Assembly (NCBI GenBank): GCA_021786815.1
Contig: JAJYMR010000264.1
Location: forward strand, 1-35,755
Direction of reading: 5' to 3'
Source: Deltaproteobacteria bacterium
GTDB taxonomy: Bacteria; Desulfobacterota; Binatia; Binatales; Binataceae
Length of the DNA stretch: 35,755 nucleotides
In this document: piece by piece, positions 2,645 through 35,334 of the stretch
How the letters are laid out: each line of letters begins with the position of its first letter
How positions within the stretch are numbered: the stretch's first letter is position 1
The notes under the pieces: model-generated
Seen by the model: the letters and a program-made list of their open reading frames with translations, nothing else
What the model was told of the DNA's origin: nothing
Database searches by the model: none
Program-made: the position numbers and the translations under genes

Positions 2645-3238
2645 CTAGTATTCGCTTGCGAGATCTTCGGCGAGCGCGTGTGCGAGGGCGCCCGATATTT
2701 CAGCTCTCACGGAGAGGTTCGGATGGTCCACCTCGATCGCGGCCTTGCCCGCCTCGGCCAGCGCCAGGAACGCATTAGCGTCGACTGCCGCGTCAAAGTG
2801 GATGAACTGAACTGAGCTTATTCGCTCGGTTGACATCTGCCGCGTGTCGAACCTGGCCGGAAACCTTCGGTCGCCGAGTTTCAACCACACGTGGTTCTCC
2901 AGTCCGACCAGCCGGCGAAGCGCCGCGTCGCGCTCGGCGGACTCGCCGAACTCAATAAGCATCGTGGCCGCGAATCCGCCCGCGCGCGGCAGCAGTTCGT
3001 TGTACGTGTCGATCTCGTGCTGCAGGGCCTCGGGCGCCGCGATCTTCTCGGCGCGCAACATCTCCTCGATCTGGTACCAGACCGTCCGTCCGTTCTCGAA
3101 CAGCAGCGTCAGATGCGCGCCGACCGCGAGCCTGCGCCGGTTTTTCTCATGGATGAACAGGGCGCGAAGGCGCGGCCGCACCATTTCCCATTGTTCGAAA
3201 GGAAGAATCTCGTCTCTGCTGACAGGTTTCATCGTCAA
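2645..3238 (-). CDS. DUF3501 family protein
   Basis: 197 aa; MKPVSRDEILPFEQWEMVRPRLRALFIHEKNRRRLAVGAHLTLLFENGRTVWYQIEEMLRAEKI is typical of DUF3501; sits beside rubrerythrin and Fe-S genes. Confidence 0.75.
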   Translation of the reverse strand: MTMKPVSRDEILPFEQWEMVRPRLRALFIHEKNRRRLAVGAHLTLLFENGRTVWYQIEEMLRAEKIAAPEALQHEIDTYNELLPRAGGFAATMLIEFGESAERDAALRRLVGLENHVWLKLGDRRFPARFDTRQMSTERISSVQFIHFDAAVDANAFLALAEAGKAAIEVDHPNLSVRAEISGALAHALAEDLASEY

Positions 3239-8312: not shown

Positions 8313-8732
8313 GTGGCCCGGTTGCAGTGCGATAGTGTGAGGTGTCCCTTGGCCGCGGGCTGGAAGGAAAGCGAGATAATCCCGAATCTGTTCGTCGGCG
8401 ACCTTCAGGACGCGCAGAAGTTCGACGGCACGATAATCAGCGTGCTGCCGGATCTCCCCGAGGACGAGCCCTGGCAGGCACTGCATCTGCCGTTCATGGC
8501 CAACGGGATCGAATCGCTCGACGGCGCCGCCAAAATAATCGACGACGCTCTCGCTCTCGGCCAGTGCGTCCTGGTCCATTGCGAGGAGGGATGCGAGCGC
8601 GCACCGCTGGTGGTCGCGTGGTTCCTGAAAACGCGCCGCGCGATGACGCTCGACGAAGCCTACGCCCTGCTCCAAAGCCGGCGGCCGATGGTGCGCAACC
8701 GCGCCCGATGGCTGGGAAGCCACGGCCGCTGA
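8313..8732 (+). CDS. Dual-specificity protein phosphatase-like protein
   Basis: IIPNLFVGDLQDAQKFDGTIISVLPDLPEDE...VLVHCEEGCERAPLVVAWFL: HCX5R catalytic motif followed by AP. Confidence 0.7.
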   Translation: MARLQCDSVRCPLAAGWKESEIIPNLFVGDLQDAQKFDGTIISVLPDLPEDEPWQALHLPFMANGIESLDGAAKIIDDALALGQCVLVHCEEGCERAPLVVAWFLKTRRAMTLDEAYALLQSRRPMVRNRARWLGSHGR

Positions 8733-14500: not shown

Positions 14501-14883
14501 ACGCGGATCCGACGTTTTTCACCGCGACCGCGATGATCGGAATGATCGCGCTCGCAGGCATCGTGGTCAGAAATTCCATCATCCTGATCGACTTCATCCA
14601 TCACGGCATCGCGCGCTGCCTCACGCTCAAGGAAGCAGTGCTCGAAGCGGGCGCGATCCGGCTGCGCCCGATCGTGCTGACCGCGGGCGCGGCGGCGCTC
14701 GGCTCGGTGGTGATCACGCTCGATCCGATTTTTTCGGGCCTGGCGTGGGCGTTCATCTTCGGCATCTTCGCCTCGACCGCGTTCACGTTGGTCGTGATCC
14801 CACTCATCTACTACATGGCGTATCGCAATGCTCCGGCTCTGCCTCCGGGCCTTGAGCCGGATGAGGAGGAAGTCCAACAATGA
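11596..14883 (+). CDS. RND family efflux transporter permease
   Basis: 1095 aa; PREEDPQIVVPMADIIVQMPGSTAAEVENLVT; LILSLGLLVDDPIVDVENIHRH in TM4; second TM block at the C-terminus. Confidence 0.95.
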   Translation: MSENGEKLGFTARIVDRFLGSNLSVLLLLASLAAGALALAVTPREEDPQIVVPMADIIVQMPGSTAAEVENLVTINLERRLWEMEGVKHIYSVSMPGQAMVTVRFDVGFSETQALVEIYNKLESNRDAVPPGVTGWIVKPVGINDVPIVTLTLYSATESDAQLRRIADEILHRLQQVPNTGKSFIVGGRPRQIRVMLQADRLAGHGLTPLEVSQALQGADANLRVGTFDRGNEVYLVDSGPFLHNAAEVRNLVVGVRDGRPVYLRDVARVLDGPAEATNYVRLGFGPAAHYLLHEPGQIKLDSVGMRGQTFPAVTIAIAKRQGTNAVSVAEQVLHRVEQLKGVAIPSDVHVMVTRNYGETANEKVNELVRELLIAVAIIVGLLAFSLGIREAFIVAIAVPVTLAITLLGNLLAGYTINRVTLFALILSLGLLVDDPIVDVENIHRHFRLRTHPPRQATLIAVDEVRPPTILATFAVILSFIPMLFVTGMMGPYMRPMPFNVPLAMLMSLVVAFTITPWACFHLLRKDYEHPAGKEPEEEAAWVRRWYRRVLEPMLDSPRRARMFLYAVVAALVGSVLLVVFGFVPVKMLPFDNKNELELVVNMPEGTPVENTNKVLDDLGRLMAREPEVTAFESYAGTAAPFGFNGMVRHYYMRRDPWQGQVRIQLAPKADRAQGSHEFALRIRPEVEKIARADHAKVIQIVETPPGPPVLASVVAEIYGPAAGSEYAQMIRYGRSLRKVFEKTAGLADTDDSSIAREPRLEFMLDRRKAALNGVNVEQAAQTLAIVLGGRAAVPVHTNTERTPLMVELRMPRADRSSLERLLSSVRLRGAAGAMVPLSELGTVKRTLAEQPIYHKDLRRVVFVMAETVGESPVNEVLWLEKHTAKMFPPGYTVNWSGEGEWHITVTVFRDLGIAFGAALFFIFVLLVAQTESMVIALIIMAAIPLTLIGIMPGFFILNLLTESHIAGYADPTFFTATAMIGMIALAGIVVRNSIILIDFIHHGIARCLTLKEAVLEAGAIRLRPIVLTAGAAALGSVVITLDPIFSGLAWAFIFGIFASTAFTLVVIPLIYYMAYRNAPALPPGLEPDEEEVQQ

Positions 14884-20903: not shown

Positions 20904-21746
20904 TCAGATAGCGTCACCTCGCGCGAATGACCTCCAGGCGAGCAGCCATGCCGCAAAGCCGACCAAAATCGGCCAGAGCGTGCCGAGCACGAACAGCCAT
21001 CCCGTGCCAATCCGGTTCGCCAGGTAAAAGCCCACCGGGCCGAGCACGCCGAGCGACGGCTCCGCCGCCGACAGCAGCGCCATCCGTGCCGTCTCCACCG
21101 GGTTCAGGCACGCGAGCAGGAACACCGCCCGCGCATTGAGCCGCCATTGGAGCATCAGCCCGATCAGCGCGAAGTCGAGCATCACAACCGCTCCGACCCA
21201 GATAACGAGCAGATAGACCATCGCCTTGGCCTGGTTGCGCACCGCAACCGACACCGCAAGCGCGATTCCAACGAATGCCCATCCCAGCGAAGCCGAGATC
21301 GCGATCGCCCGGCCCACGAATGGCCACGGGATGCTCTGTCCGAAAGCGAGCCGTCCGTACACGCCGAGCATCACCATCAACACGGCCAGCGGCACCATCA
21401 GGACCGCGTATCGGACCAGCGACACGCCGCCGAAGTATTCGTTTCGGGTTATCGGATGGCTCAACAGCAGTTCGAGCGTTCCGTCCTCGCGCGCGCGGCT
21501 TATCACCTGCCCCGAACCGGTCAGCGCCAGAAGCGGGATGAGCAGCACCAGGCCGTTGCACAGCGAGAGCAGCACGCGGCCCATCCCGGCAAAACCGAGC
21601 ACGTCCGATTCCCTGAGCCCGACCAGAACGAACATCGCGCCCAGCGCCACGTACAACCCGAGCAGGAAGACGAGCCATCGCGAACGCTTCACTTCGGCCA
21701 GATCAAGCCGCGCAACCGCGGCAAGCCGCGTCATCGCCTCTCCCAT
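20904..21746 (-). CDS. nosY: ABC transporter permease NosY
   Basis: MGEAMTRLAAVARLDLAEVKRSRWL...SRAREDGTLELLLSHPITRNEYFGG; start overlaps the nosL stop. Confidence 0.85.
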   Translation of the reverse strand: MGEAMTRLAAVARLDLAEVKRSRWLVFLLGLYVALGAMFVLVGLRESDVLGFAGMGRVLLSLCNGLVLLIPLLALTGSGQVISRAREDGTLELLLSHPITRNEYFGGVSLVRYAVLMVPLAVLMVMLGVYGRLAFGQSIPWPFVGRAIAISASLGWAFVGIALAVSVAVRNQAKAMVYLLVIWVGAVVMLDFALIGLMLQWRLNARAVFLLACLNPVETARMALLSAAEPSLGVLGPVGFYLANRIGTGWLFVLGTLWPILVGFAAWLLAWRSFARGDAI

Positions 21747-22240
21747 CAGTGCCCCTCCGCGCCCATCGGCGGCATACCCGAGCGAAGCTCCTTCTTTCGC
21801 ACGCGCACGTACTGTTCGGCCTCGGCCAGCGACATCGCGCCGTCGGTTCCCTTGCGCACGGCGCCAAGCCCGTAACCCATCGGGCTTTCCTTGCCGCGCA
21901 CGAACCCGACTTCGTCGGCTTTGAGCCACTTGTCGCCGTCGAATGCGTGGAAGTAGAGCGCATGGACCCTGGGACGGCGCTGCTCGACGAACGCAAGCAG
22001 GCATCCCGGGTCGTCGAAGTCGTAAACTTCGCCGCCCGCGGTCTGAAGCTGGGCCGCAAAACGTGGATCGCTGATACTCATTCCGCATTCGGCGCACGAT
22101 TCGCGGTCGTAGATGATCGGGCGCACGCCTTCGGGCGGCTGTTGCAGGCGATGCACGGCGAACACCAGCACCGCTGCCGCGACCAGCACCAGCGCGAACG
22201 CGATTGCCCTTGATTTCGAACGCGATGCGATGGTTCTCAC
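21746..22240 (-). CDS. nosL: Nitrous oxide reductase accessory protein NosL
   Basis: RESCAECGMSISDPRFAAQLQTAGGEVYDFDDPGCLLAFV; CxxCGM motif. Confidence 0.88.
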   Translation of the reverse strand: MRTIASRSKSRAIAFALVLVAAAVLVFAVHRLQQPPEGVRPIIYDRESCAECGMSISDPRFAAQLQTAGGEVYDFDDPGCLLAFVEQRRPRVHALYFHAFDGDKWLKADEVGFVRGKESPMGYGLGAVRKGTDGAMSLAEAEQYVRVRKKELRSGMPPMGAEGH

Positions 22241-22247
22241 GCCTCCG

Positions 22248-23117
22248 TTATTCCTTTACGTCAACGCTCTCCATGTCGCGGACGACGATGTTGCCGAAGT
22301 CGCCGTCGCACTTCTCGGAGATCTCGGCGAGCAGTTGCGCCTTCTCCGCGCGCGTCACGGTTCTTGCCCATGCCCCTGCCGCGCCCGGATTGAACCCGCG
22401 CCCGCGCAGCCATTCGACGTGGGTCTTCGCGATGTCGTAAAGCTCGATCACGCTGACCGTGCGCGACTCGAGGAAGGTGTTCACCGAGCCGTCGAAGCTC
22501 ACCCGTCCGCTTTCCAGCGCGAGCACGTGATCGACCAGATGCTGGATCTCTTCGAGGCGGTGCGAACAGAGGATCAGCGTCGAGCCGTCGGCAACCTGTT
22601 CGTAAAGCCTGTAGAACGCGCGCCGGCTTGCCGCGTCAAGGCTCGCCGTGGGCTCGTCAAGGATGAAAAGGTCGGCGCGCGTTGAAAGCGCAAGCGCGAG
22701 CATCAGCTTCTGCCTGGTGCCGCCCGAAAGCGCGCGCACCGGAAGCCCGGCCACGGCTCCAACGTCGAATCCGAGTTGCGAGGCGGTCGCCGCGATTGCC
22801 TCCGGAGCAAGTCCGCGCACCACCGCAACCGTCTCGACGATTTCCTCGACCGTGGCTCCGAGTTGCGGCGCCACCTGCGGAACGTAGGCGAGGCGCTCGG
22901 CAAGGCGCGTGCGATGCTCGAACGGCGAATGGCCGTCGAGCCGCACCTCGCCTTCGCACGCGAGCAGCCCCATGATGATTCGCGTAAGAGTCGATTTTCC
23001 CGAACCGTTGGGGCCGATAAGCGCAACCTTCCGTCCGACCGGGATGACGGCCGAAACGTCGCTCAGCGCCTTCACCTCGCCGAACCACTTGCTCACGTTC
23101 TTGAGCTCGATGCGCAT
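22248..23117 (-). CDS. nosF: ABC transporter ATP-binding protein NosF
   Basis: Walker A GPNGSGKST; ALSGGTRQKLMLALAL signature; LFILDEPTASLD Walker B. Confidence 0.88.
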   Translation of the reverse strand: MRIELKNVSKWFGEVKALSDVSAVIPVGRKVALIGPNGSGKSTLTRIIMGLLACEGEVRLDGHSPFEHRTRLAERLAYVPQVAPQLGATVEEIVETVAVVRGLAPEAIAATASQLGFDVGAVAGLPVRALSGGTRQKLMLALALSTRADLFILDEPTASLDAASRRAFYRLYEQVADGSTLILCSHRLEEIQHLVDHVLALESGRVSFDGSVNTFLESRTVSVIELYDIAKTHVEWLRGRGFNPGAAGAWARTVTRAEKAQLLAEISEKCDGDFGNIVVRDMESVDVKE

Positions 23118-24475
23118 CAGGAATGCACCGATGAACGCGCGCTCGCCGAGCCAGCCGGCGGTTCCATCCTGGGCATCGGGTCAACCAGCAGCGGCCTGGG
23201 TTTGAACAACGGGAACATCTCGCTAATCGTGTCGAGCGCGTCGAGCGCTACCGTGCCGCGGAAAAAGGTGAGATTCGGATGACTCTCGATGAGCGTGCCC
23301 GAGAGGCTTCTGAGCTCGTAGGGGACGTCGCCAAACCCGTCGCCGTTCAGGTCGTAGCCGCGATAGTCGTCGAAGTAATTTCGCCGCCATCGCGTCCGCA
23401 TCAGATCGCCCCGGCTCTCGACCCGCACCTGTACCAGGTTGTCACTGAGCGTGTTGTCCTCGAATTCGTTGTTCGTCTCGCTGCTCAGGAACACCATCGC
23501 CGTGTCGCAGAACATGAAGCGGTTGCGAAGCAGGCGGTCGGTCTGATTCGGATGAAATGGGCAGGTGTCGAAATAAACGCCGACGTGGTCGCGGATGAAG
23601 CGGTTGTCTTCGAGCGTCAGGTTGCCGGACTCCTTGCCGCCGACGCCGAAGCCGTCCGATTCAAGGTTGCCGGCGAACAGGTTTCGAGCGATCCGGATAT
23701 CGTCGGAGTACATCACGAAAACGCCCACCACGTCGTTCAGATAGCGGTTGTCCTCGACCACGCCGCCGTTGGAGTACATGAAATGCGTTCCGTAGCGGCC
23801 GTTGCGCACGAAATTGCCGACGACCCGGACGCGGGGCGAGAACCATACGATGAGGTCGCGCGAATTCTCGATTACGTTGCCGGCGATCAGCGAGTTGCGC
23901 ACGCCCCAGCATCGGATGGCGTCGCCGCGGATTCCGAGCGGTGTCGCCGGATTGCCAACGATATGGTTGTCCTCGACCGTCAGGCCCTCGGAGCTGTCGA
24001 TCACGATCCCGTACAGCGCGTTCCTGATCGTCACGCCGCGCACCGTGTCGTTCCTGCCGCGCACGTAGACGGCGGAATCGGTCTTGTCGTAGCGATCGCC
24101 ACTTCCGTCCACGGTTAAGCCCTCGATTGCGGCGTTGTCGCTCTCGACAAGCACGGTGCGGCCCTCGCCGGTGGAACGGATGATCGCGCCCGACGGTCCC
24201 CATAGCGTCACCGGATGGCGAATTATCACCGGTCCCGGGTAAACGCCCGGCGCAAGCCGAAAGACGGCGCCCGGACTGGCCGCGTCGAGCGCCGCCTGGA
24301 GCGAATCACCCGGATGAAGATCAAGTCCCGTGGCGGGACGCGCGGGCGGCCTGATGGACGGCGGAGTCAGAGCCGGGGAGGCATTGCGTGCCCTGCCTCC
24401 CCACGCCGGCAGTATCGCGATCGTCGATACCAGGACCGCGAGCAGCCACACGCTCCGTTTCCGAACAAGCTCCAT
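23117..24475 (-). CDS. nosD: Periplasmic nitrous oxide reductase maturation protein NosD
   Basis: Right-handed beta-helix repeats (GVTIRNALYGIVIDSSEGLTVEDNHIVGN...); start set to MELVRKRS at 24475 (24496 also possible). Confidence 0.9.
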   Translation of the reverse strand: MELVRKRSVWLLAVLVSTIAILPAWGGRARNASPALTPPSIRPPARPATGLDLHPGDSLQAALDAASPGAVFRLAPGVYPGPVIIRHPVTLWGPSGAIIRSTGEGRTVLVESDNAAIEGLTVDGSGDRYDKTDSAVYVRGRNDTVRGVTIRNALYGIVIDSSEGLTVEDNHIVGNPATPLGIRGDAIRCWGVRNSLIAGNVIENSRDLIVWFSPRVRVVGNFVRNGRYGTHFMYSNGGVVEDNRYLNDVVGVFVMYSDDIRIARNLFAGNLESDGFGVGGKESGNLTLEDNRFIRDHVGVYFDTCPFHPNQTDRLLRNRFMFCDTAMVFLSSETNNEFEDNTLSDNLVQVRVESRGDLMRTRWRRNYFDDYRGYDLNGDGFGDVPYELRSLSGTLIESHPNLTFFRGTVALDALDTISEMFPLFKPRPLLVDPMPRMEPPAGSASARSSVHS

Positions 24476-24521
24476 AGCTACTCCGCCGACACACAAGCCG
24501 CGCCGTGCTTTGCTTCTCCCA

Positions 24522-26525
24522 TCATCGCGCGGACGCCGTGCTGGTCGCGCCGGTTGGTTTGACCAGCAGGTACCCCGCCATCTCCAGATGCAGCGCCGAG
24601 CAGAACTCGGTGCAGTAGAACGGGAACACGCCGGGCCGATTCACCACGATAGTCACGTTGGCCGTTTTTCCCGGCTCCATGCTCAGGTTGACGTCGTATT
24701 CGCCGACGCCGAAGCCGTGCGTTGCGTCCTGGGTCTGCTCGATATTGGTCACGTGGAAGTGGACGGTATCGCCCTGGTTGACTTCGACGATATCGGGCCG
24801 CATGTGGCTTCGGACCTCGGTCATGTAAACGTCAACCACGTTGCCGTGGCGCTCGATGCGCGCCTTGTCCTCGCTTGGCGTCGCGTTCGGGTCAATCTCG
24901 TGAGTGAGAGCGTTGGTGCCCATCTTGTAGATGCTCCACGGCTTGACCAGATCGGAGCGGATCGCCTGCGCGTAGTGAGGCTCGCCGACTCCGAGCGGCA
25001 TGTTGTAGAGCAGGTGCATGTGCTCGCCCGAAATATCGATGAGTTGCTCGTCCTGCGGCAGAAGCGGGCCAACATTCTTGAAGCGGTCGATGGACCACTT
25101 ATCGAGAGCGACGAGGTACTGGCCCCACGGATGCTCCGTGTTGCTGCCCGGGATGCACAGATGGCCGACGTTGTACTGGACCGGGATCTTCTCGACCACC
25201 TTGAGCGTTTCGAGCGACCATTTGGCGACCTTCGACTCGATGAACAGGCTCGTATAGGCGTAGCCCCGGCCGTCGAATTGCGTATGCAGCGGGCCAAGCC
25301 CGATCTCGGCCTGGCCATGAAGCGCGTCCTTGAACGCGATGATCGGTACGCCGTAGGGATCGCGGCCCTCGAACTTCTTCGCGTCGATCGCAGCCTTTAT
25401 TTTCGCGAAACTGAACACCGTAACGTGGGTGTCGAGCTTGCCGTTTACGCAGATGTATTTGCCGTCGGGCGTAACGTCGACGCCGTGAGGGCTTTTGGGC
25501 TCGGGAACGAAATAGAGGATGCCTTCCTCGGCCGCGACTTTGAGCGGGATCAGCCGCATCCCATCGACCATCCTGTACTTGCCGTCCTGCTGCGCCACTT
25601 CGGCCGCCTTCTTCCAGTTGAAGACGTGCAGGTAGTCGTATTCGTTCTGCGAAGCGCCCTGTTCGAGCGGAGGTTTGCCCTCCATGTCGCCGCCATAGGC
25701 GCGCTCGGTATCGAACGAGTTCGTGAACGACCATCCGTAGCTCGCGAGCTTGCCCGCGTCGCTCAAGTCCTGCATGTACGGCGGAAGCTCGATCGCGAAC
25801 GACTGGCTCTTGTCGATCAGCCCTTTGGTGCGGTCGAATTTCCAGAAGACGGCGATACCGCGGTATTTGTCGTCGAAGCTCTTCTGATTGAGCGGTGCGT
25901 AAGTGCCGCCGATCGGCACCGGGTACTGCGAGGTCTCGATAATGTATTCGGTGTTCGGCGTGACAAACGTTCCGCCGTGGTCGCTGTTCATCAGTTCGCT
26001 TCGGACGATCTGATGGGTGGTGAAGTCCTTCAGGCTTATCACCGCGACCCGCGCGTTCGCCTTGTCATTGATGAACAGGAATTGACCGTCATAATCGCCG
26101 TTGGTCTGACTCAGGTTGGGATGATGCGAATCGCCCCAGGTCAGCGTTTCGCCCTGCGGCGAACTTGCCTTGAGCATCGCCTTGGTGTCGTCGTCGAAGC
26201 CGTAGCCCTGCCACGGTTCGGGGGTGAAGACGCCGATGACTTTCAGGATGCGCATCGAGGGCAGCCCGGCCACAATTACCTGGCCGCTGTGCCCGCCGGA
26301 CATAAAGATAAGGTAGGGATCGGGCCGGCCCGGCGGCATGTAGGTTTCAAGCGCCGCCTTCACGTCGTCGGGATCGAGATTGCGCTGCTTGATTATCTGC
26401 TGGACTGCCGTGCCTTCCTGAGCACCTTCGCGCGGACCGCACGACCAAATTAGCAGTCCCATCGCCAACAAAACCCCTGCGATAGTCAACCCTTTGCTGG
26501 CGAGGGATTTTCCCTTGGCTTTCAT
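24522..26525 (-). CDS. nosZ: Nitrous-oxide reductase, Sec-type (clade II-like)
   Basis: GDSHHPNLSQTNGDYDGQFLFINDKANARVA (CuZ region), HGVDVTPDGKYICVNGKLDTHV, GEPHYAQAIRSD, CuA motif CTEFCSALHLEM; Sec/lipoprotein-like N-terminus MKAKGKSLASKGLTIAGVLLAMGLLIWSCGP, no twin-arginine motif in the called N-terminus. Confidence 0.96.
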   Translation of the reverse strand: MKAKGKSLASKGLTIAGVLLAMGLLIWSCGPREGAQEGTAVQQIIKQRNLDPDDVKAALETYMPPGRPDPYLIFMSGGHSGQVIVAGLPSMRILKVIGVFTPEPWQGYGFDDDTKAMLKASSPQGETLTWGDSHHPNLSQTNGDYDGQFLFINDKANARVAVISLKDFTTHQIVRSELMNSDHGGTFVTPNTEYIIETSQYPVPIGGTYAPLNQKSFDDKYRGIAVFWKFDRTKGLIDKSQSFAIELPPYMQDLSDAGKLASYGWSFTNSFDTERAYGGDMEGKPPLEQGASQNEYDYLHVFNWKKAAEVAQQDGKYRMVDGMRLIPLKVAAEEGILYFVPEPKSPHGVDVTPDGKYICVNGKLDTHVTVFSFAKIKAAIDAKKFEGRDPYGVPIIAFKDALHGQAEIGLGPLHTQFDGRGYAYTSLFIESKVAKWSLETLKVVEKIPVQYNVGHLCIPGSNTEHPWGQYLVALDKWSIDRFKNVGPLLPQDEQLIDISGEHMHLLYNMPLGVGEPHYAQAIRSDLVKPWSIYKMGTNALTHEIDPNATPSEDKARIERHGNVVDVYMTEVRSHMRPDIVEVNQGDTVHFHVTNIEQTQDATHGFGVGEYDVNLSMEPGKTANVTIVVNRPGVFPFYCTEFCSALHLEMAGYLLVKPTGATSTASAR

Positions 26526-26598
26526 TGCCGCAATGCTCCTTCTTGGCCACCGCGCGACGGAACAGCGACCGGATTTTTTCAAAGATTCGATGAGAGAT

Positions 26599-27087
26599 TT
26601 ATTGCTCTTTCCCGAGCGAACGGACGTGGGCGATAAGCGCGTCAACTACTTTCGGCTTGCTCTGCAAGTCAGGGTTGGACGCCATCAGCGGGCTCTTGCC
26701 GACTGCGGCGCCTCCGTAAACGATCGCCGTGCCGATAGTCTTGTCGTTAGTGGCGGCCTGCCACTGCTTGTCGTGGAAGTTCTGAGGCTTGGGCGTGAGC
26801 AGCTTGGCTCCCGGACCGTCGCCGCGTCCGTCCTGCCCGTGGCAGGTTGCGCATCGGGTCTGGAAAATCTCCTTGGCTTCCTGGACCGGGTTCTCACCAC
26901 CGGTCGCGGGCGCACCTTCAGCCGCCGGAGTCTCCTCGGCTGGCGGCTGCGCGGTCTGCTGCGCCTGCTCCGCGGGCGCCTGCGGGGTCTCGGCCTGTTT
27001 GCCCTGACAGCCGATAAGCAAGCCCGCGATTATAAGAACCGGAACGGATGCACCTATTACGCCTAACCGTCGATGCGTCGAAAACAT
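26599..27087 (-). CDS. Monoheme c-type cytochrome, predicted lipoprotein
   Basis: MFSTHRRLGVIGASVPVLIIAGLLIGCQG lipobox; CATCHGQDGRGDGPGAKLLTPKPQNF heme motif; directly upstream of nosZ. Confidence 0.88.
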   Translation of the reverse strand: MFSTHRRLGVIGASVPVLIIAGLLIGCQGKQAETPQAPAEQAQQTAQPPAEETPAAEGAPATGGENPVQEAKEIFQTRCATCHGQDGRGDGPGAKLLTPKPQNFHDKQWQAATNDKTIGTAIVYGGAAVGKSPLMASNPDLQSKPKVVDALIAHVRSLGKEQ

Positions 27088-27328
27088 GCATTCAAAATCA
27101 CGCAAATCGCGTTCCACGGGCGAATGTTCCGCAAATTCAACCGGGCTTTTGGCTCGCGATTCCGAAAGTCGCAGCGCTTGTCCCTTTTGGGAGCAGGAGC
27201 CGAAGCACACACGTGTCGCGAATCGGGCGTCAGAAAGATGGCTCGCCCACGGTCAAATAGGTAGCTAAAATACCTGTTTTTGGCTCGTTGATGTGGACCT
27301 TGCGCGCGGACGACGGCCTAAGACGACT

Positions 27329-27347
27329 GGTTTTGAGCATCAAAGCC
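27329..27347. promoter_or_regulatory. Inverted repeat between the divergent cytochrome genes
   Basis: GGTTTTGA-GCA-TCAAAGCC, 7 of 8 arm positions complementary; spacing does not fit an FNR box. Confidence 0.35.
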
Positions 27348-27478
27348 GGGTCAAAATCATCCGAGGTCTGAGCTTTGTGGTCCAAAGCATGCTTCGGGAC
27401 CCGGATAGCGACGCGCCCCGGCGCTTCGTCGGAAACGCTGTCGATGGAAAGATCAGGCTTCGCAAAAGGAGAGTTGCG

Positions 27479-27997
27479 ATGCACAAATGCGAACGCCCGC
27501 GAATCGCGAAACGGGCATTGGATAACTTCGGGCTGCGCCGCGCGCACCGGCGCCTCGCGAGCGCAGGGTTCGCGCTAATCCTCGCTGCTGCAGTGGTTGC
27601 AACGCATGTCGGGCTCGCTGTGTCGGCCGAACCTGCGCCGCCCCCGTCTGATGAGCTGATATTGACCGGGAAGGCCGACTACCTGGTGCATTGCGCGCCA
27701 TGTCACGGAACCAGCGGCACAGGTAACGGCCCGGTCGCGGAATTCCTCAAGCAGCGCCCCGCGGATCTCACCCGGCTGTCCGAGAAAAGCGGCGGGCGCT
27801 TCCCCGAAAAGCACGTATTCAAGGTTATCGAGGGTACCGCCATCGTCAAAGCGCATGGCACGCGCGAGATGCCGGTATGGGGCAACGTGTTCAGCACGCA
27901 GGCCCTCGATCCGTTCAACCGGGCCCAGACCGAACGCGAGGTTCACGACCGGATCGACCGCCTCATCGGCTATTTGAAGTCGATCCAGCGGAAGTAG
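27479..27997 (+). CDS. Monoheme c-type cytochrome, exported
   Basis: MHKCERPRIAKRAL...LILAAAVVATHVGLAVSAEP signal; CAPCHGTSGTGNGPVAEFLKQRPADLT; distal MPVWG Met ligand. Confidence 0.88.
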   Translation: MHKCERPRIAKRALDNFGLRRAHRRLASAGFALILAAAVVATHVGLAVSAEPAPPPSDELILTGKADYLVHCAPCHGTSGTGNGPVAEFLKQRPADLTRLSEKSGGRFPEKHVFKVIEGTAIVKAHGTREMPVWGNVFSTQALDPFNRAQTEREVHDRIDRLIGYLKSIQRK

Positions 27998-28042
27998 AGT
28001 GCTTCGCCGCACGTACCCGCACGCGCGGCGAAACCGCGCCTG

Positions 28043-28834
28043 CTAGACCATGAAGCCGCCGTCAACGCTGATGACCTGGCCGGTGATCGCACCCGCCGCG
28101 TCAGAGGCGAGCAACGCCGCCATCGGACCCAGTTCGTCGGGTTCGACGATTCGCCGCTGGATATTCTGGCTTTCCGCGCCTCGCTTCGCCTCCTCGGGGC
28201 TGACGCCCATCATCGCGCCGAGCACGTTCCAGTCGACCAGCTTCGTATTCGTCCATCCCGGGCAGAGCACGTTGACGTTGATACCGTATGGCGCCGCCGC
28301 GTGGGCGAGCGAGCGCGTGAAACCGATAAGCCCGTGTTTCGCGGCCGAATACGCAAGCGGTCCGCCGCCGTTCTTCGCGTAGCCGGAACCGATACTGATA
28401 ATCCGCCCCCACTTCTGTTTCATCATGTAGGGAAGCGCGGCGTGGGTGGCATAGAACGCCTGGGTCAGGTTCAGGAAGAGGTTGTCCTCGAAGGCCTTCG
28501 GGTCATGTTTCAGATGGTCGAGTTGATCGGGGCCCTCCGCGACGAGTCCGCCCGCGTTGTTGACGAGGATATCGAGTCCGCCGAGTTTGCGCGCCGCCTC
28601 GTTGACGCCCGCCGTGATCTGCTCGCGGCTCATCACGTCCATCGCAACCGCAAATCCGCGCTGTCCCCGCGCCTTGATTTCGCCGGCGACCGCTTCCAGC
28701 TCGCTCATCGAGCGCGACGATACCGCAACGTCAGCGCCCGCATCCGCCATCGCAAGCGCCATCGAGCGGCCGATACCGCGTCCTCCACCGGTCACCAGCG
28801 CCCGCCGTCCCGTGAGGTTGATAATGTTCTTCAT
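28043..28834 (-). CDS. SDR family NAD(P)-dependent oxidoreductase
   Basis: ALVTGGGRGIGRSMALAMADAGADVAV; NNAGG; YSAAKHGLIGF; ITGQVISVDGGFMV. Confidence 0.92.
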   Translation of the reverse strand: MKNIINLTGRRALVTGGGRGIGRSMALAMADAGADVAVSSRSMSELEAVAGEIKARGQRGFAVAMDVMSREQITAGVNEAARKLGGLDILVNNAGGLVAEGPDQLDHLKHDPKAFEDNLFLNLTQAFYATHAALPYMMKQKWGRIISIGSGYAKNGGGPLAYSAAKHGLIGFTRSLAHAAAPYGINVNVLCPGWTNTKLVDWNVLGAMMGVSPEEAKRGAESQNIQRRIVEPDELGPMAALLASDAAGAITGQVISVDGGFMV

Positions 28835-29068
28835 GACGTCTGTCTCTCTCCGTAGCGAAATGAACCTGTTTTGGTATCACGAGCCTGGTCAGGGTAACCC
28901 GCTCGCGGACGGATTGCATAGGGGGCCCGTATCAGGACGGCGGACGCGCTCGGAGGGTCGAGCGCGACGCCGAGCGTCCTTCGCCGGGTTCGAGTCGTAA
29001 TCGGCTTTCGTGGCAGGATGCCGGTGAGCGCCTTGGGCGAATCCTACGCGCGCGAAGCAGCCGGCGGT

Positions 29069-31702
<2,634 letters not shown>

Positions 31703-32652: not shown

Positions 32653-32748
32653 TGGCGGAGGGGGGAGGGAGTCGAACCCTCCGGCGACAGTATTAGCCGC
32701 CAGGCCGGTTTTGAAGACCGGTGCGGGCACCGGCCCGCTACCTCCTCC
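32653..32748 (-). tRNA. selC: tRNA-Sec (anticodon TCA)
   Basis: Minus strand: GGAGGAGG TA GCGGGC CGGT GCCCGC A CCGGT CTTCAAA ACCGG, long variable arm GGCGGC..GTCGCC, T arm GAGGG TTCGACT CCCTC, 3' CCCCCTCC G CCA. Features: 8-bp acceptor (one A.C mismatch) plus 5-bp T stem, 6-bp D stem with 4-nt loop, anticodon TCA, encoded CCA. Confidence 0.95.
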
Positions 32749-32810
32749 GCATCGTAAAAGGCCTTAAGATTGCAGGAGAACTTCTGTAGACCCTAGGCGT
32801 TCCAGAAAAT

Positions 32811-32831
32811 TGACCACCATTCTGACCACCA
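32811..32831. repeat. Short direct repeat TGACCACCA x2, candidate recombinase-binding sites
   Basis: TGACCACCA at 32811-32819 and 32823-32831 (12-bp period), between selC and the integrase. Confidence 0.45.
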
Positions 32832-32834
32832 CGA

Positions 32835-34163
32835 TTGACTGACGTTTGTGATGCACATAAAACCGTGCGGATGACGCACAACGCGAGTGAGCAGGGAAAA
32901 GCGCGCCGGGGGACTCGCCGTCGCGGCCGGGGTGAGGGGCTGCTCCATAAACGTAAAAGTGACGGTCGATGGGAAGTACGCATCGACCTAGGACGCGGGC
33001 CTGACGGAAAGCGGAAACGCAAGAGCATATACGGGTCAACACAGGCAGCGGTCATCGAGGAACTCGATCGGTTGCGCGGGCAACTGCGTGATGGAGTGGA
33101 CCTGGCCGCGGCCGACCAAACCTTGGCGGTGTACCTGCGGCACTGGTTAAGGCAGATGCAGGCATTGTTGCGACCCCGTACGTGGGAGTCGTACACGACC
33201 ATAGTGGAGAAACACGTAGTTCCCACGCTCGGTCAGGTTAAGCTTTCTGAGCTCACGCGTCTATCTGTTGCACGGTGGTTAACAGGCCTGCATGCGAAGG
33301 GATACGCCGATCAGACGCTACGGAATTGCCGCGAAGTCGTGCGCCGTGCTCTTGCCGACGCCGTCGGCCGTGCACTCACGAGTAATCCGGCGGCAAATGT
33401 TCCGCTTCCGCGCGCGCAGCGCCCTGAGAATAGCGAAGCCGACGATGATGGCGCCGATGCGGCGGACGCAGAGGTTAACGCGCTGACGCCGGTCGAGGCG
33501 GACCAGCTCCTGAAAGCCGCTGATGAGGCCGATGGCCGATACGCCCCGCTGTTTGCAGTGACGCTAGCGCAGGGACTGCGTCGAGGAGAGGTCCTCGGGC
33601 TTAAGTGGAGCGACGTTAACTGGGAGAAGCGCACATTGCGAGTGCGGCGCGCGCTGCAGCGGGTCCGTTTGCCCGAGTCCGAGATGGTTGGTCAAAATGG
33701 GTCGCAACGGCCGCGCAGGACGAAGCTGGCTCTAACCCCGGTGAAGTCGAAGAAGAGCCGCCGTACTATACCGCTTGCGGACGTCGCCGTAGCTGCGCTT
33801 GAGGCTCGGCGCGCACGTCAGGAATCGGAGCGCATGTTAGCTCGCGATCGGTGGATCGAAACCGGGCTGATATTTGCAGCGTCCGATGGCGGACTCCCTG
33901 ACCCTTCACATGTGGACGCCGTGTTCGCGGACGCACTGGACCGGGCCAAGGTTCGGCGGATAAGGTTGCACGACCTCCGACACACGACCGCGTCTTGGCT
34001 GCTGTCCCGTGGGGTGCAATTGACGGTGGTGAGCCGGATACTGGGACACTCGACGGTGAGTATCACGGCTGACATTTACGGCCATATTTCGGAAAACGCG
34101 ATGACTCGGGCGGTCGCGGAAATTGATGCGGCGCTGGATGAGGTAAAGGGGAAACATGGATGA
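32835..34163 (+). CDS. Tyrosine recombinase / site-specific integrase
   Basis: QGLRRGEVLGLKWSDVNW (Arg I), TPVKSKKSRRTIPL (Lys), RLHDLRHTTASWLLSRGVQLTVVSRILGHSTVSITADIYGHI (H-R-H-Y). TTG start at 32835 or ATG at 32871. Confidence 0.93.
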   Translation: MTDVCDAHKTVRMTHNASEQGKARRGTRRRGRGEGLLHKRKSDGRWEVRIDLGRGPDGKRKRKSIYGSTQAAVIEELDRLRGQLRDGVDLAAADQTLAVYLRHWLRQMQALLRPRTWESYTTIVEKHVVPTLGQVKLSELTRLSVARWLTGLHAKGYADQTLRNCREVVRRALADAVGRALTSNPAANVPLPRAQRPENSEADDDGADAADAEVNALTPVEADQLLKAADEADGRYAPLFAVTLAQGLRRGEVLGLKWSDVNWEKRTLRVRRALQRVRLPESEMVGQNGSQRPRRTKLALTPVKSKKSRRTIPLADVAVAALEARRARQESERMLARDRWIETGLIFAASDGGLPDPSHVDAVFADALDRAKVRRIRLHDLRHTTASWLLSRGVQLTVVSRILGHSTVSITADIYGHISENAMTRAVAEIDAALDEVKGKHG

Positions 34164-34815
34164 GCAGCTCAGGGCAGACGTGCAGGCACTTGGTTTGCCT
34201 GAGTGGATAATACACCGGATATTCCTAACGCCGGCTGAAGTCGCAGCGCTGTTCAGGGTATCGGAACAGGCGCTAAGTGATTGGCGGAAGGAAAAGGGGC
34301 GAACCGGAGGGCCGCCCTTCGTGCCCAAAGGCCGAGTCGTACGATATCCGACCAAGTTATTTGTTGCTTGGCTGCGGGACCGCCTGAAGGGAGCGATGCC
34401 GACAGGTACGGTGGTGCTGGTTCCGAGCGCTAAACCGGTGGACGTCGTTTGGCTTCATCAGGTTGCCGAGATCCTGGAGCGTGTAGTAGCCGCGCACTCC
34501 CTTCGACCGCCCCGTCTTGAGCAACTGCTGTCGGAATCCACGAAGCTCTGTGAGCTGGCGCAACTTGTGGCCGAAAGCGAGCCACGTGCGGTTGACCCGG
34601 CAACGGCCGGCGGCCTGCGACGGCGCTATCGGCGCCTGAGCAGGGTCCGCGATCGAATTCTCCGCACCTCGCGGCCGCGCCGGCGCGAGAGCCGCGCACT
34701 ATCGGTTGGCGTCAGAGTTCTAGCCCAGAAGCTCAACCGGCTTGCGAGCAACCCCGAAGTAAAGAATATCCTGACGTTGAGAGCGCTTGCCGGCGAGCAG
34801 ATCCAGGAGACCTGA
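34156..34815 (+). CDS. Helix-turn-helix (AlpA/excisionase-like) protein with basic C-terminal extension
   Basis: FLTPAEVAALFRVSEQALSDWRKEKGRTGGPPFVPKGRVVRYPTKLFVAWLRDRL; start overlaps the integrase 3' end by 8 bp. Confidence 0.7.
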   Translation: MDEQLRADVQALGLPEWIIHRIFLTPAEVAALFRVSEQALSDWRKEKGRTGGPPFVPKGRVVRYPTKLFVAWLRDRLKGAMPTGTVVLVPSAKPVDVVWLHQVAEILERVVAAHSLRPPRLEQLLSESTKLCELAQLVAESEPRAVDPATAGGLRRRYRRLSRVRDRILRTSRPRRRESRALSVGVRVLAQKLNRLASNPEVKNILTLRALAGEQIQET

Positions 34816-34977: not shown

Positions 34978-35334
34978 GCGTGCGTCCTTGGACTTTCCGA
35001 CGCGGCCCACGGCTCCATCAGACGCGGGCGAGCACAGGACTCCCCGGTTCTCGTGTGAAGTGTTTCCGTACGTGCACGGGGTTTCCGACCGCGCAGGACC
35101 CAGACGCCCTCGCGATATCGATGCATCCGATGAAGCCTTCCTGTTCGCCCATGGCGTCGGCGTCCTGGAGCGATTCACTTTCGCGGCTCAATACCCGGCC
35201 CGCACGCACCCCTGTCAACGCTTCGCTGCTTCCCTTGCGGAAAACCGCGCGTGACTCGAGGGCGTCGTGGGTCGCTAGCCCTTCAACGTACGACTCTTTC
35301 ATTCGCAACACTTCGCCGGTTTATCCCGGGGCAC
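34978..35334 (-). mobile_element. Group II intron remnant (5' RNA domains, no reverse transcriptase)
   Basis: Minus-strand ATGAAAGAGTCGTACGTTGAAGGGCTAGCGACCCAC (MKESYVEGLATHDALES...SEALTGVRAGRVLSRE) and CGGAAACCCCGTGCACGTACGGAAACACTTCACACGAGAACCGGGG...GGAAAGTCCAAGGACGCACG (ARSETPCTYGNTSHENRGVL...GAVGRVGKSKDARR) are the conceptual translations characteristic of the segment upstream of the RT in many bacterial group II introns. Boundaries approximate; GTGCC at 35334 is a possible 5' end. Confidence 0.65.

Follow-up and report, generated by a model that had tools for sequence, protein, structure and literature searches.

A tyrosine-integrase island likely inserted at the 5′ side of the selenocysteine tRNA gene selC in a Binataceae genome

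The window, a stretch of 35,755 nucleotides that makes up the entire contig C101 (one of 420) in an 88%-complete genome of a Deltaproteobacteria bacterium of the family Binataceae, carries a tyrosine integrase gene beyond the 5′ end of an intact tRNA-Sec gene, selC. The best explanation, which we regard as likely, is a 5′-type tyrosine-integrase island at selC that entered by a crossover in the anticodon loop, with selC positions 1-42 and the DNA upstream supplied by the element.

Under this explanation, the attP site of the circular element would comprise a pair of arm-type sites, the upstream DNA and selC positions 1-42, including the core CTTCAAAACC, and would recombine with the host selC at the anticodon loop. 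The 5′ half from the element would thereby be joined to the 3′ half of the host to give one intact chimeric selC, and the host's own 5′ half and promoter would be displaced to the distal island end, outside the contig. Recombination would yield, in this order, the host 5′ flank, the displaced 5′ half, the island, the arm pair, the chimeric selC and the host 3′ flank. The window reads, from the left, host 3′ side, selC, pair, integrase, a gene for an HTH_17 protein, decayed DNA and contig end, and this order fits the right part of the proposed product.

Organization of the selC locus

The features of the locus are listed in Table 1. The selC gene was detected by ARAGORN and by Rfam (tRNA-Sec, 70.9 bits), and its fold resembles the selC folds of relatives. 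Every selenoprotein requires tRNA-Sec; a selB gene is present on contig C250 (above the curated cut-off), so selC has a use in this host.

Table 1. Features at the selC end of the window
Feature	Position	Strand	Basis
selC (tRNA-Sec)	32653..32748	-	ARAGORN, Rfam; intact
selC 3′ half, read as host-derived	32653-32706	-	positions 43-93 identical to G007
Proposed att core CTTCAAAACC, anticodon loop and stem edge	32707..32716	-	fragment ends in relatives
selC positions 1-42, proposed attP-derived	32707..32748	-	at least 5 differences in positions 1-32 from all compared selC
Divergent selC/integrase intergenic region	32749..32870		inspection; must house the promoter of one gene or both
Tandem pair TGGTGGTCAGAATGGTGGTCA, proposed arm-type integrase sites	32811..32831	-	9/9 repeat, offset 12
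Tyrosine integrase	32871..34163 (ORF open from TTG 32835)	+	Pfam, PHROG, kin comparison, tree
HTH_17 protein, excisionase-like	34156..34815	+	Pfam 8e-7; PHROG 66 excisionase 2e-4
Decayed DNA up to contig end	34816..35755		contains part of a group II intron and short stretches that recur elsewhere in the genus

The open reading frame 32835-34163 (+) encodes a tyrosine integrase by its matches to Pfam Phage_integrase PF00589 (5e-24, above the curated cut-off) and to the PHROG 1 integrase (8e-71). All of the PF00589 hallmarks of the C-terminal catalytic domain (R, HxxR, H and Y) are present, the catalytic residues being seen in the translation as the R of GLRRGE, K, HDLRH, LGHS and the Y of ADIYGH, and the active site looks complete. 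The initial annotation placed the start of the gene at 32835, from where the frame is indeed open; TTG 32835 is merely the first possible start, and ATG 32871 is the likelier one because homologues align from about residue 13, that is, from about this codon. With the ATG start, a gap of 122 bp separates the integrase from selC. The position of the integrase beyond the 5′ end of an intact selC, and its divergence from it, were reported correctly: coordinates, ARAGORN/Rfam and Pfam/PHROG agree. No close relative of the integrase was found in viral contigs and genome contigs, and the nearest phage and plasmid integrases match it at only about 30-33%.

The start of the HTH_17 gene overlaps the 3′ end of the integrase gene. 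The decayed DNA to its right contains a fragment of a group II intron (35079-35297, minus strand; RF02005, 155.6 bits), in which domain V gave no match. The contig ends about 2.9 kb from selC. A search of the right part of the window found no direct repeat of selC or its flank, in agreement with the earlier inspection, and the distal att site most likely lies beyond the window, as had been supposed. Because the right end holds only 940 bp of decayed DNA and the window is the whole contig, the missing second att site is uninformative.

The two halves of selC have different affinities. Outside the core, the 3′ half shows 0 differences from that of relative G007 over 51 positions, whereas the 5′ half differs from every other compared selC at 5 or more of 32 positions; among other pairs with similar 3′ halves, 1 of 76 reaches five differences in the 5′ half. 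The changes affect the D-arm region without disrupting pairing of the D-stem. The gene appears to be chimeric, with its 5′ half from the element and its 3′ half from the host. Compensated divergence in place could also have produced the 5′ half differences, and is conceivable since the selC of G015 shows four D-stem changes.

In line with the initial proposal, the element most probably occupies the 5′ side and thus provides the upstream DNA of selC, and the promoter of selC would now be element DNA; expression of selC may therefore be under the control of the element. No consensus sigma-70 promoter was found in 32749-32870, although the scores are just as low in several relatives.

Insertions at the anticodon core in related genomes

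Relatives in the same bacterial family carry islands of both polarities at one selC core: 3′ fragments in G007 and G016 start at CTTCAAAACC, and 5′ fragments in G023 and G020 stop there. In G007 and G016, an integrase is located 3′ of selC and is followed, about 8-9 kb away, by a selC 3′ half starting at the core. G030 represents the empty site for the 3′-type island of G007, having a PNPOx-type gene 5′ and an AcrB-type gene 3′ of selC, and the same two genes flank the G007 island on its outer sides.

The displaced 5′ halves end exactly at the core. The copy on contig C74 of G023 is identical to that genome's own selC over 42 nt, and the copy on contig C23 of G020 precedes the intact gene by 4.5 kb; a second selC fragment of G023 (C21) stops three bases earlier. 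On the 5′ side of its intact selC, G023 has an integrase, an HTH_17-like protein and an SSB. Past the C74 fragment, the DNA shows synteny with what lies 5′ of the intact selC of G010, where the nearest shared gene is farther from selC. Taken together, the 5′ halves of G023 and G020, the 5′-side integrase of G023 and the synteny with G010 make 5′-type insertion at selC in these relatives very likely. Since their displaced 5′ halves end exactly at position 42, positions 1-42 of the window selC are proposed to be element-derived. The initial annotation had suggested looking downstream for a direct repeat of 32700-32830, as for a crossover upstream of selC; a crossover in the anticodon loop is most likely, and its distal signature should instead be the host selC 5′ half ending at CTTCAAAACC.

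Searches for this displaced host 5′ half in the 88%-complete, 420-contig assembly did not find it, and no empty site for the window genome was found among the relatives compared. The same-genus genome G001 gave no match to selC, which its assembly may lack; selB is present there. The GH15 and PNPOx-type proteins, which are 5′ neighbours of selC in relatives, were not found in the window genome (G000). Two candidates were set aside: both matches to a possible second selC-like sequence in the window genome proved to be tRNA-Ser genes, and the ArsR gene neighbouring selC in the window could not serve as a synteny anchor, as its orthologues are not beside selC elsewhere.

Several other loci were noted. 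On contig C314 of the window genome, a 5′-type relic is located at tRNA-Ser(TGA): locus positions 98-127 duplicate positions 10-39 of the tRNA gene exactly over 30 nt, 2.9 kb upstream of the intact gene (3010-3100), near which there is a GTGGGCA arm pair. In G002, an 86-aa remnant of a related integrase (locus positions 8424-8681) lies 5′ of selC in the divergent orientation seen in the window, and a GTTTGCAAA arm pair separates the two; this is possibly a decayed relative of the window arrangement. Three selC copies with duplicated flanks are present in G060, and G050 has a second selC copy without most of the variable arm. The upstream copy of G050 was considered as a 5′-type island and rejected, since the upstream region is repeated in tandem along with it.

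Arm-type sites and alternative readings

Only two exact copies of TGACCACCA occur in the window, at 32811 and 32823, 12 bp apart. The pair has the form TGGTGGTCA-GAA-TGGTGGTCA, reads toward selC and is located on its 5′ side, 97 bp from the anticodon. The closest kin integrase, at a tRNA-Arg gene in G004, has the pair TGGCTGTCAGAATGGCTGTCA, that is, TGGCTGTCA-GAA-TGGCTGTCA. The arm-site scan was devised after repeats had been spotted by eye in several flanks, and the kin loci, which were examined after the scan was designed, serve as its test. All 13 kin loci examined have a tandem repeat of two units of about 9 bp, matching at 8 or 9 positions, in the interval from tRNA gene to integrase. It is always 3′ of the tRNA gene, at a distance of 87-153 bp from the anticodon, and reads in the same direction as the window pair. 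A 9/9 pair at these offsets was found in 0.27% of control stretches. Pairs were also found in other 5′ flanks, those of selC in G021, G034, G023 and G002 and of the tRNA-Ser gene on C314, at 87-107 bp; 8-match pairs among them are weaker evidence because at least 8 matches are reached in about 3% of control stretches. Where both a clear pair and a displaced half are visible (G007, G016 and the tRNA-Ser gene on C314), they are on the same side.

The arm pair bears on whether this integrase acted at selC, which the preferred explanation assumes. An unlikely alternative is that the integrase is part of an island with another attachment site, such as a tRNA gene located right of the contig end and facing the integrase C-terminus, and that it came to abut selC by rearrangement or decay. 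Kin integrases do aim the C-terminus at their tRNA gene (toward its 3′ end in 15 of the 15 with a tRNA gene in the locus), whereas the window integrase presents its N-terminus to selC; the decay of the DNA right of the HTH_17 gene and the failure to find a displaced selC fragment would also suit such an origin. Against it, the pair between integrase and selC has the kin distance and reading direction from the anticodon core, and a search immediately downstream of the integrase gave no pair.

It is much less probable that the element brought a complete selC, as in tRNA-dependent lysogeny, the whole gene then being element DNA. The two identical full selC copies found 4.2 kb apart in G012, and a 5′ half in the window unlike those of relatives, could be taken that way, but G007 has exactly the same 3′ half, and a second selC is absent from the genome assembly.

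Equally improbable is a 3′-type island that contains the nos cluster and lies between the AcrB-type gene (ending at 14883) and selC, with the integrase on the right as a relic. Islands of the 3′ type are common at selC in the bacterial family, and in G007, G030, G060 and G062 an AcrB-type gene adjoins selC, or its displaced fragment, on the 3′ side; in the window its homologue is 17.8 kb away, with the nos cluster and a second glgP between, so that the 3′ side has its own history. The interval 20907-31702 encodes nosZ, nosD, an ABC ATPase and permease, and cytochrome c, together with the glycogen phosphorylase paralogue, of which another copy is on C292. However, no selC 3′ fragment is present near the AcrB end and the 3′ side of selC has no arm pair; moreover, an insertion there could be a separate, older event that leaves the 5′ reading unchanged. 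The 3′ flank of selC also lacks an integrase, and the window a displaced 3′ fragment.

Least probable of all is a mis-assembly that joined selC to an unrelated integrase contig: the genome is fragmented into 420 contigs, but the distance from arm pair to core fits the kin and would hardly result from a random join.

Integrase phylogeny and known systems

In the integrase tree, the window integrase falls within an 11-row clade (support 99/99) whose tRNA-placed members are all 3′-side users. The 5′-side integrase of G023 is distant from this clade, on a long branch, and since the two are far apart in the tree, 5′-side use of selC probably arose at least twice. In the window line this use was probably accompanied by an inversion of the integrase gene with respect to the arm pair. 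Around the anticodon loop, the stem forms an almost perfect inverted repeat (CCGGT...ACCGG), a symmetry that may ease a change of side. We tentatively extend this to a broader proposal, which we find possible rather than probable: that a clade of 3′-entering integrases switched polarity by flipping arm sites and gene orientation around a near-palindromic core, that the island replaces the D-arm half and promoter of selC and so makes selenocysteine decoding dependent on resident mobile DNA, and that at least two unrelated integrases of the family did so at selC independently.

Islands in tRNA genes are usually taken to spare the host promoter and 5′ half; the element described here most likely swaps both. 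With 3′- and 5′-type islands on one anticodon core, these loci are suited to testing what determines the side, be it arm position, overlap polarity or the integrase. They also call for caution in island finding and promoter annotation, as a single-copy tRNA gene may have mobile DNA upstream of it.

The initial annotation had treated the 5′-side arrangement as atypical. It does belong to a minority, a 5′ tDNA fragment having been recorded for 159 of 3919 islands in Islander and a 3′ fragment for 3760 (Hudson, Lau and Williams 2014, PMC4383910), but the class was already known and is recurrent in this bacterial family. The window island resembles the 5′-fragment islands in its tyrosine integrase, the proposed crossover in the anticodon region, the intact tRNA gene and the location on the 5′ side; it differs in that the displaced 5′ fragment is not seen in the window genome, the target is selC and the integrase is new. 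The 3′-type selC islands of G007 and G016 share the target, the anticodon core and related integrases (33%), and Pf prophages at tRNA-Sec share the target gene, their site being its 27-bp 3′ end (PMC7549136). In both, the 3′ half is displaced and the island lies beyond the 3′ end, whereas the window has the 5′ side and a reversed integrase. Islands associated with dusA replace the 5′ end of their target gene and supply a new upstream region (PMC4482086), much as proposed here, but the target is protein-coding and the integrase is of another family. In tRNA-dependent lysogeny, the element likewise inserts within a tRNA gene of the host, whose function is preserved by tRNA sequence that the element carries; there the host gene is not restored and is complemented by a complete phage tRNA (PMC10865867), whereas the window has one rebuilt, apparently chimeric selC. 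The window island thus adds to the known 5′-fragment minority, and its unusual part is the probable change of side within an integrase clade.
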